Positions 12,489 through 30,202 of a stretch of 30,723 nt of DNA are shown here, one piece after another. Source of the DNA: a virus; the IMG/VR virus record IMGVR_UViG_3300050821_002516, positions 1 to 30,723 of that record; one strand, given 5' to 3'. The translations under genes were made by a program, and so were the position numbers. Every line of letters begins with the position of its first letter. Within the stretch, counting starts at the first letter, position 1. The notes beneath the pieces are model-generated. The model made no database searches. It had not been told where the DNA came from and was given only the letters and a program-made list of their open reading frames with translations.

Positions 12489-12730
12489 CAGCGAATGATG
12501 CGGGTGAACTTATCCTAGGCCTTGGGATTTTGTTCAACGGGATCGCGGCGTTGATTGCAGCAGTGCAATCGTTCCGCAATGGGCGTGCGTTGAGTGATAT
12601 CCACAAGGCGACGAATAGCATGAAAGACGCGCTGGTCGCGTCGACTGACAAGGAGGCGTTCGCCCGTGGGATTAAGGCTGGTGAAGCATCAACGATGAGT
12701 ATCAACCATCGAGGGGAAGCTCCCCAGTAG
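12485..12730 (+). CDS. Small membrane protein ending the rightward block
   Basis: 81 aa, start in the previous stop (ATGA). The N-terminus (ELILGLGILFNGIAALIAAVQSFRNG) is a hydrophobic segment at about residues 8-30; the rest is polar and ends in DKEAFARGIKAGEAST. It may act with the preceding coiled-coil gene. Its last 29 nt overlap the end of the convergent primase/helicase gene on the other strand, so the two transcription blocks meet with no spacer. Confidence 0.6.
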   Translation: MTANDAGELILGLGILFNGIAALIAAVQSFRNGRALSDIHKATNSMKDALVASTDKEAFARGIKAGEASTMSINHRGEAPQ

Positions 12731-14006
12731 GGTCGATCCCGGTGCCGAGTACGCCAGGAGCGTAGAGGATCATGTTCTTGTTCCGCGGATCAAGTCCGGC
12801 TTGGCAAATCAAGCCGGACTTTTCCATGACTGTGATAACGCGCTCGACAGAGTGGAGGGGAATCCGTGCCTTGGCAAAGTTGACGATGCGTTGCGAGGAT
12901 ATCTTGCGACCGCCGACGCAGGAGGTTATCACGTAGTGATGGATTTCGTCGATGGCCTTCTGGTCCGCGTTGCTAGCGCCAGCAAGGAAGATGTCCGCCA
13001 TGCTGGCTTCGGCTTCTATGAGCCAGGCAAGAGCACGATTGAAGTCATCGCGGGTGAGGAGTAGCACGTCACTCCTGTCGACTGCGCTGACCATGCTGAG
13101 CTTGTAGATGTGAACGCGACGGCGTGTGCTGTAGTGGAGAAGCTTTGGATGGGTGACGGCTGGAAGCTCACCTCCAGCTCGCCATTCGTTGACGGCGTCT
13201 TGGTATCCGGAGGTAACTTTGAATTCCCCGATAGCTGAAGATATACAACGAAGATCATGGACGAGATCGCTATTGAGCGAAGTGTCAACCTTAGCAAAGT
13301 CATCTCCGATTTTCCTTTCGTCTGAGAATACCATCACGACACGGGAAGTGAACCCCTGCTCCCATGCGTTCTCTGGCATAAGCTTCATAAGATTCGATGG
13401 GGTCGTGCCGCAGAGCACGTTCAGCTGTGGGTTCTTAATCTTGATCTTGATATCGTTCCCGCGCCGCTCGTGTCCGTACTCCCGTGGGTCGTAGAACGCG
13501 GACATGTTGCCGATGACTTCGTCGTCGTATTTATGCATGAACGCGGTGATTTCATCCGCGGTGATGAACATGGAATTGTAGTCTAACGGGGCGAGCCCAG
13601 CAGGGTCCCTCGGGTCCTTAGCTGTGGGGATGAAACGCTTTGCTTTCGCAAGTGCGTCGATCATGCTGGCGCCGGTCATCGACGTTGGAGCCTTATGCGG
13701 CTCGGGGATTTGCATATAATACCGTTCGCTCTCGGAGATCGTGATCGTCTTGCCGACGCCGGGGTGCGCCACGAGGAAGCAGTACACGTTGGGAACCAAC
13801 ACTCCGCGGTTGGTAACCATCCAGACCCGTTGTTCCAGCGCTGCTGCGATTGTCGTGATTGCTGACCAGCGTCGGAAGACCTCCGGGCTGTCAAGCCGAG
13901 CGGTGCTTTGCACGAATGACTCGATCCAAGAGGCGCACTTGCGGCGTGCGTCGCCGTTTGTCTTCCCCGATGTAGTCTTTAAGGCCATCGGGATTCGTTG
14001 ATGCAT
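12702..14006 (-). CDS. DUF3987-like replicative ATPase (primase/helicase-type)
   Basis: 434 aa. An ORF runs up to 14156, but that part lies in the polymerase gene; the ATG at 14006 has AAAGG 10 nt upstream and a plausible N-terminus, so I chose it. A Walker A motif (HPGVGKT, about residues 81-87) follows a FLVA strand, and ITADEIT (about 149-154) looks like Walker B. LNVLCGTTPSNLMKL and QGFTSRVVMVFSDER are typical of DUF3987 proteins, ATPases often found next to primase domains in phages and plasmids. Inferred role: replicative helicase or helicase loader for the adjacent polymerase. It overlaps the polymerase gene by 116 nt. Confidence 0.72.
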   Translation of the reverse strand: MHQRIPMALKTTSGKTNGDARRKCASWIESFVQSTARLDSPEVFRRWSAITTIAAALEQRVWMVTNRGVLVPNVYCFLVAHPGVGKTITISESERYYMQIPEPHKAPTSMTGASMIDALAKAKRFIPTAKDPRDPAGLAPLDYNSMFITADEITAFMHKYDDEVIGNMSAFYDPREYGHERRGNDIKIKIKNPQLNVLCGTTPSNLMKLMPENAWEQGFTSRVVMVFSDERKIGDDFAKVDTSLNSDLVHDLRCISSAIGEFKVTSGYQDAVNEWRAGGELPAVTHPKLLHYSTRRRVHIYKLSMVSAVDRSDVLLLTRDDFNRALAWLIEAEASMADIFLAGASNADQKAIDEIHHYVITSCVGGRKISSQRIVNFAKARIPLHSVERVITVMEKSGLICQAGLDPRNKNMILYAPGVLGTGIDPTGELPLDG

Positions 14007-15399
14007 GGAAGTCGCCTTTGTTCCAACCTGTTTTGCAGTCATAGGGGATGCGCAATGTCCTGCCGTGGGAAAGAGGAATGTCTTCGAGAAGGGCTTCGGA
14101 TAGAATAGGCACGACTTCGGCTTCGCGGTCCTCCGGGTACATGAAGGTGAGGGCATCGTGATCGTGCATCATTTGGATTGCGATTCCGCGGAGCCAGATG
14201 CGGAGCATGGCGCGGTTGACGATGTCGGCTAGAGAGCCTTGAGGGTCATATGCAATAGCTTCCCGTAGGGTAGCCGGATCACTGCGTCTACCAAGGAACC
14301 ACCTCTTTCTTCCAGTAAGCGTGATAAGATATCCTCGTTTGCGAAGCTCAATTCCAACCCATTCATGCCATGATAGGTGGGAAGGAAAAGCAGTGAAGTA
14401 CACTGGCTGGAATCGCTGGACGATCGGCTCGGGGAGCTTGGTTTGTCCTGCGAGGGTGGTGGGTTCACCACCATAGTTGGAACCGTGTCCGAGCTTTTTG
14501 CACATGAAACGGTAAGTGTAGTGTCTATAGTATGGTCGCTCTGCGATATCTTTATCTCGCCTAATATCATGCGTCCAAGGGAGGTTAGGCCAACAGATTC
14601 TAGCAACTGCCGTATGGATGTCTCCAGATTCAACAGCATCTAAGTATCTCCCATCTTTGAATAGGTTCCATTCTGTTGCTCCGACGCAGTAGGATTCCCC
14701 TGACTTCGCGTCGAACTTGGCGAATTTAAATCCGGGATCGCTGATGAAGATGCTTCGGAGGCTTTCCTCAACGTTCTGGAGGTTTCCACCCGTACCGAAT
14801 TCGCTAAAGCTACTAGAGAACCGACCAGTGTTAGTGCCAGCAATATTATAAGAGCTTCGCATACGCCCATCGGGATCAATCTCCGTGCGTAAGACGCTGA
14901 TCTTCTTTCCTATATCTCGCATTGCGAGGATGTGTAGTACGATTTGTCTGGCGATCAAGTAGGCTTCCAGCTTCTCTAACGCTTTGCGATCGACGGTCAC
15001 ACGGCCTTTGCTTCGCACCTCGGGCAGGCCCAGCTTATTGTAGAACAACATCTTCAGATCGTCTGGGCTGCGCCAGTTGAACCGAGTCATCCCGACGCCG
15101 TCGAGGACGATACGTTCTAGCTGGGCTTCGAGCCGCTCTAGCGTCTCCGAGAACTCATCGATGACTTCAGCTTTTCGACTCTGATCCACAAGCACGCCCC
15201 GCAGTCGCATTTCAAGTGCAGGACCTTGTAGTGCCCGAGAGAAATTATACGTCTGTCTGGTGTGATCGTCCAACTGCGGTAGTAGGACTTCGAGGACTTC
15301 GTAGGTAACAGCACAATCGAGCCCGTTATAAATCCATTCGCGTTCCATTCCGGAGATTTCATCATTGGGTGATCGTTCATGTGTGCGGATTATCCTCAC
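13891..15399 (-). CDS. DNA polymerase, family A polymerase domain (with Exo III motif only)
   Basis: 502 aa from a GTG that overlaps the stop of the upstream UDG-exonuclease gene; AGAGGG lies a few nt before it. Residues 24-28 (YNGLD) are the Exo III motif of a 3'-5' exonuclease whose Exo I and II motifs are in the preceding gene. The polymerase domain follows: NTGRFSSS (190-197), motif A FDAKSGE (D230, E235), motif B R297-x3-K301-x7-Y309-G310, a LTGRKRWF turn (361-368) and motif C MHDHD (411-415), where the usual HDE is HDH. Key catalytic aspartates D230 and D413 are present, so an active polymerase is expected. It would work with the upstream product, either as two subunits or as a rarely joined chain. 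Confidence 0.88.
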   Translation of the reverse strand: MRIIRTHERSPNDEISGMEREWIYNGLDCAVTYEVLEVLLPQLDDHTRQTYNFSRALQGPALEMRLRGVLVDQSRKAEVIDEFSETLERLEAQLERIVLDGVGMTRFNWRSPDDLKMLFYNKLGLPEVRSKGRVTVDRKALEKLEAYLIARQIVLHILAMRDIGKKISVLRTEIDPDGRMRSSYNIAGTNTGRFSSSFSEFGTGGNLQNVEESLRSIFISDPGFKFAKFDAKSGESYCVGATEWNLFKDGRYLDAVESGDIHTAVARICWPNLPWTHDIRRDKDIAERPYYRHYTYRFMCKKLGHGSNYGGEPTTLAGQTKLPEPIVQRFQPVYFTAFPSHLSWHEWVGIELRKRGYLITLTGRKRWFLGRRSDPATLREAIAYDPQGSLADIVNRAMLRIWLRGIAIQMMHDHDALTFMYPEDREAEVVPILSEALLEDIPLSHGRTLRIPYDCKTGWNKGDFHASTNPDGLKDYIGEDKRRRTPQVRLLDRVIRAKHRSA

Positions 15400-16508
15400 T
15401 CATCCCTCTTGATCGTTTCTGTTGATTTGCGTTCGGACTTCCACGGTCCGTGATCGGTGTACATGCTCCCGAGGTAACCCAGTCCCTTCAGGGCTTCCGG
15501 CTGCAAGGCGTGGTGAAGCAGCATGGTGTCATGCTGGGCCCCGAAGGTTCGGATTCCATAGCTGCGCAGTAGGAACGCGATGTCGTAGAGCCCGTTCTGG
15601 AACACCTTTCCGATTCCGCGATCCTCAAGAACCGTACGTATAAGCTCCCAACAGCGTCGTTCAGAATCCGCAGTCGGCCAATAGCTTTTGCCCGGCTTTC
15701 TGGCGTCATCGAACGGTATAACAATCGCAAGGTCCCGTCGGGGAGCGAAGCCCATGCATGTAATACGCGTGCCTGAGGTTTCAATGTCGCAAGAAATGAG
15801 CGTGCCTGTTTGGCAATACGTATGGAAGAATGATTCGATGTCGTCGAGGTCTGGCTCGATCCAGATTTCGCATGGGGGACGGCGTACATCGGGGAACTCC
15901 CGTTGGAGGACAGCTTTGCTGAGGTCCGCGACCGTGGTCGGGCGAAGCTCCCACTGGCGGATCACCGCAGCGGGATGATATGCACAAAGAAGTTTGTATC
16001 CAGCAACTGTATGAGTGCTGATGCAAGTCGTACCGCGAAGCTTAGCAATACCGGTGCGGCCACATAGAGCCCATAGAGCAGAGTTGCCCAAAGCAACAAT
16101 GAGATTAGGATCAAGGGAAATAATTTCATCGCCAAGGCGGTCCAACTCGGATACATACCTGCGGTGAACGTATTTGGAAGGGAGCAGCGCAGGGAATCCA
16201 GGTATGCCTTCGGCCTTGCTGCCGCAGAAGTGTTCGAGTTTGTTTCCGGGTGGGTGTTCTGAGAACACGTTGGTCCGTCGGACTTCGTCGGCATGAAGCC
16301 TCCAGATGTTGTCGATATGGCGGGAGTCACCCGAAGAGTAATATCGTCGGATGTATTCCGTGTCGGAGTGGGTGAATTCAATCACGCCGCTCTCGTTGAG
16401 CATACGAAGAAGCTCGATACCGCTAGGACCAACAAAGTCGACGCCCAGCTTCGCTTCGGCTTCGCCTTTTGCTTCGCCCACAAAAAGTATGGGTTTTGAA
16501 GGATACAT
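15396..16508 (-). CDS. Uracil-DNA glycosylase-like domain fused to 3'-5' exonuclease domain (polymerase N-terminal half)
   Basis: 370 aa. The N-terminal 200 residues match family 4-type uracil-DNA glycosylase: VGEAKGEAEA (10-19), DFVGPSGIELL, TNVFSEHPPGNK (79-90), LIVALGNSALWAL (136-148), LRG, and YHPAAV (177-182). Residues 235-345 are a DnaQ-like exonuclease: ISCDIET (Exo I, D241 and E243), FQNGLYDIAFL (Exo II, D309) and HDTMLLHHAL. The domain stops before Exo III, which begins the next gene. The CxxC normally at the family 4 N-terminus and the Cys before RPPG are absent, so no Fe-S cluster is expected. SPO1-like phages have a one-piece UDG-polymerase; here it is split. The ribosome site is weak, so coupling to upstream translation is likely. 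Confidence 0.82.
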   Translation of the reverse strand: MYPSKPILFVGEAKGEAEAKLGVDFVGPSGIELLRMLNESGVIEFTHSDTEYIRRYYSSGDSRHIDNIWRLHADEVRRTNVFSEHPPGNKLEHFCGSKAEGIPGFPALLPSKYVHRRYVSELDRLGDEIISLDPNLIVALGNSALWALCGRTGIAKLRGTTCISTHTVAGYKLLCAYHPAAVIRQWELRPTTVADLSKAVLQREFPDVRRPPCEIWIEPDLDDIESFFHTYCQTGTLISCDIETSGTRITCMGFAPRRDLAIVIPFDDARKPGKSYWPTADSERRCWELIRTVLEDRGIGKVFQNGLYDIAFLLRSYGIRTFGAQHDTMLLHHALQPEALKGLGYLGSMYTDHGPWKSERKSTETIKRDE

Positions 16509-28880: not shown

Positions 28881-28911
28881 TAGGCGCCAGCAGATTATTT
28901 CGCCTTTGCTG

Positions 28912-29221
28912 CCTCATTCACCCGCCAATCACTCCCCAACCCATCCCCAATCACCTCCCAATGCGCCATTTACAGTTGGGGTTCACCTGTGGCCTTACCC
29001 CGGTTCGGGGCCTATTCTCGGTCCGACCCGCTCTGCCCCCGGTCCTATGCTGTCTTTCTTGAGAGAGAGATTTTTGAGAGGACAGCCCAGAACGCGGAAA
29101 CGAACGAACGAACGAAAAGCCGGTAGGACCGCGGGTCGGGCACAGGTGAACCCCTTCATGGAATGGCGCATTGGGGACTGAATCTCGGGGGATTGGGAGC
29201 TGCTTGGGGAATGAATGAGGC
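28912..29221. repeat. 310-bp nested imperfect inverted repeat between divergent blocks
   Basis: Matching arms from outside in: 28912-28920 with 29212-29220 (extends by one base each side); 28957-28970 with 29162-29175 (14 bp perfect); 28978-28991 with 29141-29154 (14 bp perfect); 29023-29030 with 29132-29139; 29040-29047 with 29124-29131; 29049-29054 with 29081-29086. The right side carries an extra stretch with four AACG units (29098-29114). The gap 28824-29314 holds no supportable gene; frames in it are read across the repeat. Candidate origin of replication, transcription control region or packaging-related site. Confidence 0.8.
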
Positions 29222-29806: not shown

Positions 29807-30202
29807 ATGCTCGACGGGTTCGAAGATGTCTCGGTGATGCTGCGGTGCGGAGTGTACCTGCTCTGCCATCGCGGGACCGTGGTCTATGTCGGGAAGAGCA
29901 AGGTGATACTCGGGCGGGTATACACGCACCGCGTCGCATGGGGGCGCAAGTCGCGGAAGCCGCAGACCGCGGCGATCCCCGCCCGCGGGATTCTCTTCGA
30001 CCAGATTCTCGTTCGCGCGTGCGCCTCGCACGAAGTCGACGATCTCGAAGCGAAGCTCATCGCGGAGCTTTCCCCGCGCTACAACACGCAGTTGAAAACC
30101 TCGATCCCGCCTGAACTCTCGGACCTCGTCGCGCGTATCACCGCTTCGCGTGGATCGCTGCCCCGGCCCCCTGAGTCGGCGCTAGACCGTAGGGGCTTCT
30201 AA
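29807..30202 (+). CDS. GIY-YIG nuclease (131 aa)
   Basis: GVY at residues 15-17, YVG at 27-29, a conserved Arg in ILGRVYTHR (R37), the metal-binding Glu in LEAKLI (E81) and Asn in YNT (N93) give all GIY-YIG core positions. The start ATG has only a weak ribosome site. Single-domain GIY-YIG proteins act as homing or repair nucleases; this one has no DNA-recognition extension apart from a short C-terminal tail (from about 100). It directly precedes the small-terminase-like gene with a TAATG overlap, so a packaging-linked role or a free-standing homing enzyme are both possible. Confidence 0.82.
   Translation: MLDGFEDVSVMLRCGVYLLCHRGTVVYVGKSKVILGRVYTHRVAWGRKSRKPQTAAIPARGILFDQILVRACASHEVDDLEAKLIAELSPRYNTQLKTSIPPELSDLVARITASRGSLPRPPESALDRRGF

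Follow-up and report, generated by a model that had tools for sequence, protein, structure and literature searches.

Family A DNA polymerases generally carry their exonuclease and polymerase domains on one chain. Here we describe a family A polymerase that is encoded in two pieces in the virus record IMGVR_UViG_3300050821_002516 of IMG/VR, of which the whole stretch of 30,723 nucleotides (nt; positions 1 to 30,723, hereafter the window) was analysed, and in which the division falls inside the 3'-5' exonuclease domain, between motifs Exo II and Exo III. The original prediction, made from the DNA letters of the window, had stated that one chain is usual in this family, which is true, though split members have been published: in the OM43 phages MEP401 and MEP402, PolA is split into two genes (PMC10580990). 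As in the window, a family A phage polymerase is distributed there over two genes, in that case with a small gene between them, and most related metagenomic genomes are also split (PMC10580990). In contrast to the window, the MEP401 and MEP402 polymerases have their cut immediately ahead of polymerase motif A (gp13 ends with NLQNFDGEIKTLFLSRYGE and gp15 starts with MILNADAKALEW) and not inside the exonuclease site, and no uracil-DNA glycosylase (UDG) domain is described there, whereas the first gene of the window has one.

Besides MEP401 PolA, the T4-like 43A/43B polymerases and the Aeh1 NrdA are known split phage enzymes. In the T4-like Aeromonas phages 25 and 44RR the replicative polymerase consists, like that of the window, of two polypeptides, gp43A and gp43B; the two proteins of phage 25 have been reported to co-purify and to show activity, and a Seg endonuclease or an untranslated spacer occupies the join (reviewed in PMC2988022). 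Unlike the enzyme of the window, this is a family B polymerase that is split in few phages and is cut at a different place. The Aeh1 NrdA, described under the heading of 'genes in pieces' (Friedrich et al. 2007, as summarized in PMC2988022), is likewise an essential enzyme in two parts; it was cut by a homing endonuclease, carries the mobE insertion and is active as two chains. It differs from the window in being a ribonucleotide reductase, in that the insert is still there and in being described for one phage, not for a large clade.

The same domains in the same order as in the window occur in fused UDG-exonuclease-PolA polymerases (Microcystis phage Mel-JY34, ctMlz233, phrog_17 and the phiLo enzyme, PDB 9qhs), which differ in being one chain and, in Mel-JY34 and ctMlz233, in having a shorter loop between Exo II and Exo III. 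The Caulobacter phage Kuura (OQ067476; PMC9959647) shares the split between Exo II and Exo III (Kuura_029 and Kuura_026), there with two small genes between the halves, but differs from the window in its sequence (about 34-37% identity). Its UDG-exonuclease half is annotated as 'hypothetical protein', and the paper mentions just a DNA polymerase and no split (PMC9959647); the annotation is corrected here to the UDG-exonuclease half of the polymerase. In the open-licence literature we found neither this clade nor a cut within the exonuclease domain described. New are the position of the cut, which passes through the proofreading site and is fixed in a large clade, the fast turnover of inserted genes at the join, and two further sites at which members of this family are split.

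Both genes of the window, with all of their features given below, lie on the minus strand. Subunit 1 (15396..16508, 370 amino acids) comprises a UDG-superfamily domain and the N-terminal part of the 3'-5' exonuclease domain with Exo I and Exo II, and subunit 2 (13891..15399, 502 amino acids) comprises the C-terminal part of the exonuclease domain with Exo III, followed by the family A polymerase, as assigned from the open reading frames (ORFs) and the Pfam and PHROG profiles. The PHROG profile phrog_17, 'DNA polymerase', is matched consecutively by the two proteins, positions 555-788 of its 1445 by subunit 1 and 808-1232 by subunit 2. Exo I (DIET, D241 and E243) lies at 15777..15788, Exo II (NGLYD, N305 and D309) at 15582..15596 and Exo III (YNGLD, Y24 and D28) at 15316..15330. 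The motifs were thus located on both ORFs, the first two at the end of one gene and the third at the start of the next, where the original prediction had placed them. Both Exo I residues are conserved in 142/142 sequences, the aspartate of Exo II in 145/145 and the tyrosine and aspartate of Exo III in 146/146 each; the five exonuclease residues, distributed over both proteins, are accordingly invariant in the combined alignment (142/142 to 146/146). The residues just before Exo III are mostly variable, unlike its Y and D. Subunit 1 matches the PolA-type 3'-5' exonuclease (Pfam PF01612, 1.4e-5), Exo III aligns with the Y-x3-D motif of Klenow in a hidden Markov model (HMM) alignment, and the sequences of the two chains together present the signature of a putative DEDDy (DnaQ-like) exonuclease, with D-x-E in Exo I, N-x3-D in Exo II and Y-x3-D in Exo III. 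As the exonuclease site is incomplete in either chain alone, both subunits should be required for proofreading.

The DNA_pol_A domain of subunit 2 (residues 79-457, 14029..15165; Pfam PF00476, 1.1e-30) contains motif A (D230...E235, 14695..14712; D230 in 140/140), the motif B or O-helix region (R297...K301...Y309, 14473..14511; R297 and K301 in 140/140) and motif C (H414-D415, 14155..14160; D415 in 134/134). With the aspartates of motifs A and C, the Arg and Lys of motif B and a match to Klenow both by HMM (2.7e-52) and by fold, the protein is a family A DNA polymerase. The UDG domain at the start of the first gene (residues 4-189 of subunit 1, 15942..16499) was overlooked in the original prediction, the other checked particulars of which were all right. 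It belongs to the UDG superfamily by sequence profile (Pfam UDG PF03167, 4.7e-10) and by fold: in Foldseek, the subunit-1 model has the phiLo phage polymerase 9qhs as top match and also matches UdgX and family-4 UDGs as well as the Klenow exonuclease. In the family 4 (Fe-S) enzymes four cluster cysteines are conserved. In the UDG region studied here, C95 is the sole cysteine conserved at the level of at least 97%, which does not agree with family 4.

At the join (15396..15399) the stop codon TGA of subunit 1 (15398-15396) and the start codon GTG of subunit 2 (15399-15397) overlap as GTGA. The junction reads ...AAG AGG GAT GAG TGA, with GTG AGG ATA overlapping the TGA. AGAGGG (15404..15409), located 4 nt before the GTG, is the probable ribosome binding site for subunit 2 and also codes for part of the K-R-D of the conserved C-terminal tail of subunit 1, TIKRDE. 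In the downstream frame a TGA directly precedes the GTG, the two frames have 4 nt in common, and no slippery heptamer of the type X XXY YYZ is present in the last 90 nt. In the overlap, the AGAGGG upstream, the TGA before the GTG and the lack of a slippery heptamer, our reading of the junction agrees with what had been described.

A search for relatives with the same join had been proposed, and fused relatives or a sequencing error at the join had been named as findings that would speak against two genes. Two IMG/VR scans, with the polymerase half and the exonuclease half, yielded about 85 loci of 43-79% identity. Both halves are present in 77 distinct loci, and in every one of these (77/77) the upstream ORF terminates behind a TIKRD(E/A)-like tail and the downstream ORF opens with M(A)(R/K)IIxT...YNGLDC. 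A further scan, for which divergent upstream halves were aligned to form the query, returned at least 547 relatives, and among the matches listed the 68 kept loci with both halves are all split at the same point (68/68). Taken together, all 145 IMG/VR relatives with both halves readable (77 plus 68 among the matches listed) break at this point and none is fused, although some of the pairs are near-copies and do not represent independent observations. The same split is found in Kuura, which is a cultured podovirus, in its relative L120 and in two contigs of metagenome-assembled genomes (MAGs). In a scan of genome contigs just two short MAG contigs matched, and a scan with the Kuura polymerase as query gave one further relative. 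The break is not due to chance, given that all relatives tested have it.

Both halves are under purifying selection, with nonsynonymous divergence (dN) well below synonymous divergence (dS), for example 0.052/0.50 and 0.017/0.51 in the pair L019/L021; comparisons involving the window itself are near synonymous saturation. The identity matrices of the two halves correlate (r = 0.92, 128 pairs), a result that linkage alone could give as well. By these sequence comparisons the locus would qualify as genes in pieces, that is, one ancestral coding region that now appears as two genes, which have separate start and stop codons and are both under selection.

The halves are adjacent in the minority of the relatives. 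At 37/145 junctions they are tightly joined (18 at -4, 11 at -1, the rest from 0 to +9 and one at +35), and at the other 108 there are at least 40 and at most 2793 nt between them, usually occupied by other genes. Many single insert ORFs overlap the preceding stop and the following start by a few bases. Matches to a Shine-Dalgarno sequence at the downstream starts are longer than background (means of 3.9 at tight and 3.7 at insert-bearing junctions vs 3.05). The insert ORFs of at least 60 amino acids form 106 clusters and include HNH_3, Endonuclease_7 and LAGLIDADG_3 endonucleases, nucleotide-metabolism genes, a ligase-like gene and many unknowns; insert genes at the join, for example L135:5371-5832, are members of alignment A5. 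On a tree of 44 rows the join switches between having and lacking an insert at least 15 times, and well-supported branches force 12 of these switches. Since the position of the break is constant while the insert state changes this often, the split is stable while inserts turn over. As a separate observation, the polymerase halves are near-identical in the pairs L011 vs L016 and L068 vs L070 (dS 0.006 and 0.03) but the exonuclease halves differ (dS 0.41 and 0.25), which suggests that recombination at the join swaps subunits.

We consider it highly probable that the polymerase consists of two translationally coupled subunits, encoded by a gene that was cut once in the ancestor of the clade, which assemble into one exonuclease-polymerase. 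The cut in the UDG-exonuclease-polymerase gene would have hit the surface loop that links Exo II to Exo III in the proofreading domain, and would date back to the ancestor of a large phage clade. The halves would be translated separately, in the window coupled through the GTGA overlap, and would then assemble, subunit 1 supplying the UDG, Exo I and Exo II and subunit 2 supplying Exo III and the whole polymerase. After the cut, the join would have served as a neutral landing site for endonuclease genes and further small genes, which come and go there. The simplest reading put forward for the window had been that two subunits are translated separately and complete one exonuclease site together, and this is the best-supported one judged by the sequences, in view of the lack of fused relatives among the 145, the extra sequence between the halves in 108 of them and the invariance of the catalytic residues on both sides.

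A variant of this reading, to which we would give a small chance, is that the proofreading subunit is dissociable on purpose, so that the phage could run its polymerase either alone or together with the UDG-exonuclease subunit and in this way change the fidelity or the handling of lesions, and that phages exchange subunits by recombination at the join. This would account for the retention of the split in all sampled members of the clade, among which no re-fused copy was seen. It is improbable that the halves act separately, with subunit 2 as an exonuclease-minus polymerase, subunit 1 as a free-standing UDG/nuclease and the split site as a relic. Subunit 1 alone is indeed predicted to be a well-folded protein of a UDG and a DnaQ-like domain (predicted local distance difference test, pLDDT, 89.7), but a relic would drift, and both the Exo III Y and D of subunit 2 and the Exo I and II residues of subunit 1 are invariant in the approximately 145 pairs.

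Programmed frameshifting or stop readthrough that yields some full-length polymerase is very doubtful. A single frame relation is shared by 32 of the 37 tight junctions, but this is the usual operon overlap, the shared frame of all 37 lacks the slippery heptamer that a programmed -1 frameshift would need, and in the window, which has none either, the shared frame measures just 4 nt. Frameshifting is impossible where genes separate the halves (108/145, gap of at least 40 nt). The gap lengths modulo 3 are near uniform (57/45/43 for the 145 junctions) and hence there is no conserved recoding frame. We regard it as just as doubtful that split-intein trans-splicing or a group I or group II intron rejoins the halves. 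Introns and split inteins have been published in phage polymerases (PMC6892783, and references given in PMC10580990), but an Rfam search at gathering thresholds of 14 sources including insert-bearing loci gave no hits, Pfam found no intein domain, and each side carries its own stop and start. Moreover, with 13 residues after the conserved WK in subunit 1 and 23 ahead of Exo III in subunit 2, the sequence at the break is too short for intein halves. A sequencing or assembly error that breaks one true reading frame, as might be suspected of a metagenome contig in which the halves overlap by 4 nt only, is next to inconceivable given that independent contigs from many metagenomes and the isolate Kuura share the position of the split and in most cases have complete genes within it. 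Given the junctions of the relatives, the Rfam search and the frame analysis, we reject all of these, namely sequencing error, frameshift, readthrough, intron and split intein.

Structure models indicate that the two halves fit together. In locus L016 the halves are in frame except for one TAG, and the DNA was read through as a single chain for modelling. The AlphaFold2 model (79 rows) has a pLDDT of 89.5 and a predicted template modelling score of 0.86, and the values fall below 50 just at residues 346-371, the join, and in the last five residues; some alignment rows are misaligned across 345-372, which may add to the low confidence at the join. Residues 210-846 superpose in VIA-align on Klenow (1kfd; Z 29.7, root-mean-square deviation 3.0 over 510 residues) and on the phage G20c Pol I (7r0k; Z 31.6), and in the HMM alignment the join falls into the loop of Klenow that connects Exo II with Exo III.

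In the tree all rows with the split between Exo II and Exo III are located on one side of a single branch with a support of 100, which holds with the divergent set added, and among the relatives of Mel-JY34 the same domains are mostly in one chain. With one chain as the general state of family A, the sequences indicate that the split is probably derived and arose once. The fused side of the tree shows two further, different cuts. An HNH gene separates the UDG and the exonuclease in L111:718-3377 and L117:3001-5660; their closest relative L096:3001-5367 is uncut and forms with them a near before/after pair, in which the cut was placed at the protein level rather than at an exact insertion point, as the DNA alignment of L096 vs L111 scatters the insert over several gaps. 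The other cut, just before polymerase motif A and with one to two genes inserted, is found in Vibrio phage VS-ABTNL-3 (L093:4956-8090), L113, L114 and L119, and the cut of MEP401 (L123:6111-8221) nearly coincides with theirs. This polymerase family is repeatedly found in pieces.

Endonuclease insertion is a documented route to split genes (PMC2988022), and endonuclease genes are present at the break in several relatives. By analogy, the original cut was most likely made by an inserted homing endonuclease or similar gene that has since been lost in the line of the window. Several points weigh against the proposed history and assembly. We found no fused close relative of the clade of the window and thus no direct 'before' sequence for its cut, the fused/split pair L096/L111 concerning another cut, and most of the insert genes are not endonucleases; for these reasons the homing-endonuclease origin is drawn by analogy only, from L111 and the published cases. 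Furthermore, the L016 model is one read-through chain, in which the halves are predicted to fit and the binding of separate chains is beyond its reach.

If the subunits do assemble, the locus would be a stable case from nature of a polymerase proofreading site rebuilt from two polypeptides, within a family that normally has one chain, and one that would be widespread and not a one-off. It would offer a system for studying how a split catalytic site assembles, whether proofreading can be detached in vivo and how an essential gene becomes two by insertion.

In its listed form, the ORF of the next gene (DUF3987, 12702-14156, minus strand) shares 266 nt with the polymerase gene. The true start of this ORF probably lies further in, because the overlap at this place in Kuura is 17 nt only. 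Elsewhere in the window, a 94-nt imperfect inverted repeat (28911-29004 and 29128-29221, 70% complementary) sits in a stretch without clear genes between the blocks of minus-strand and plus-strand genes. A plus-strand ORF at 29807-30202, directly before the unassigned ORF from 30202, has a weak match to GIY-YIG nucleases (Pfam 8.7e-4; PHROGs endonuclease 5.8e-5) and is perhaps another homing endonuclease.

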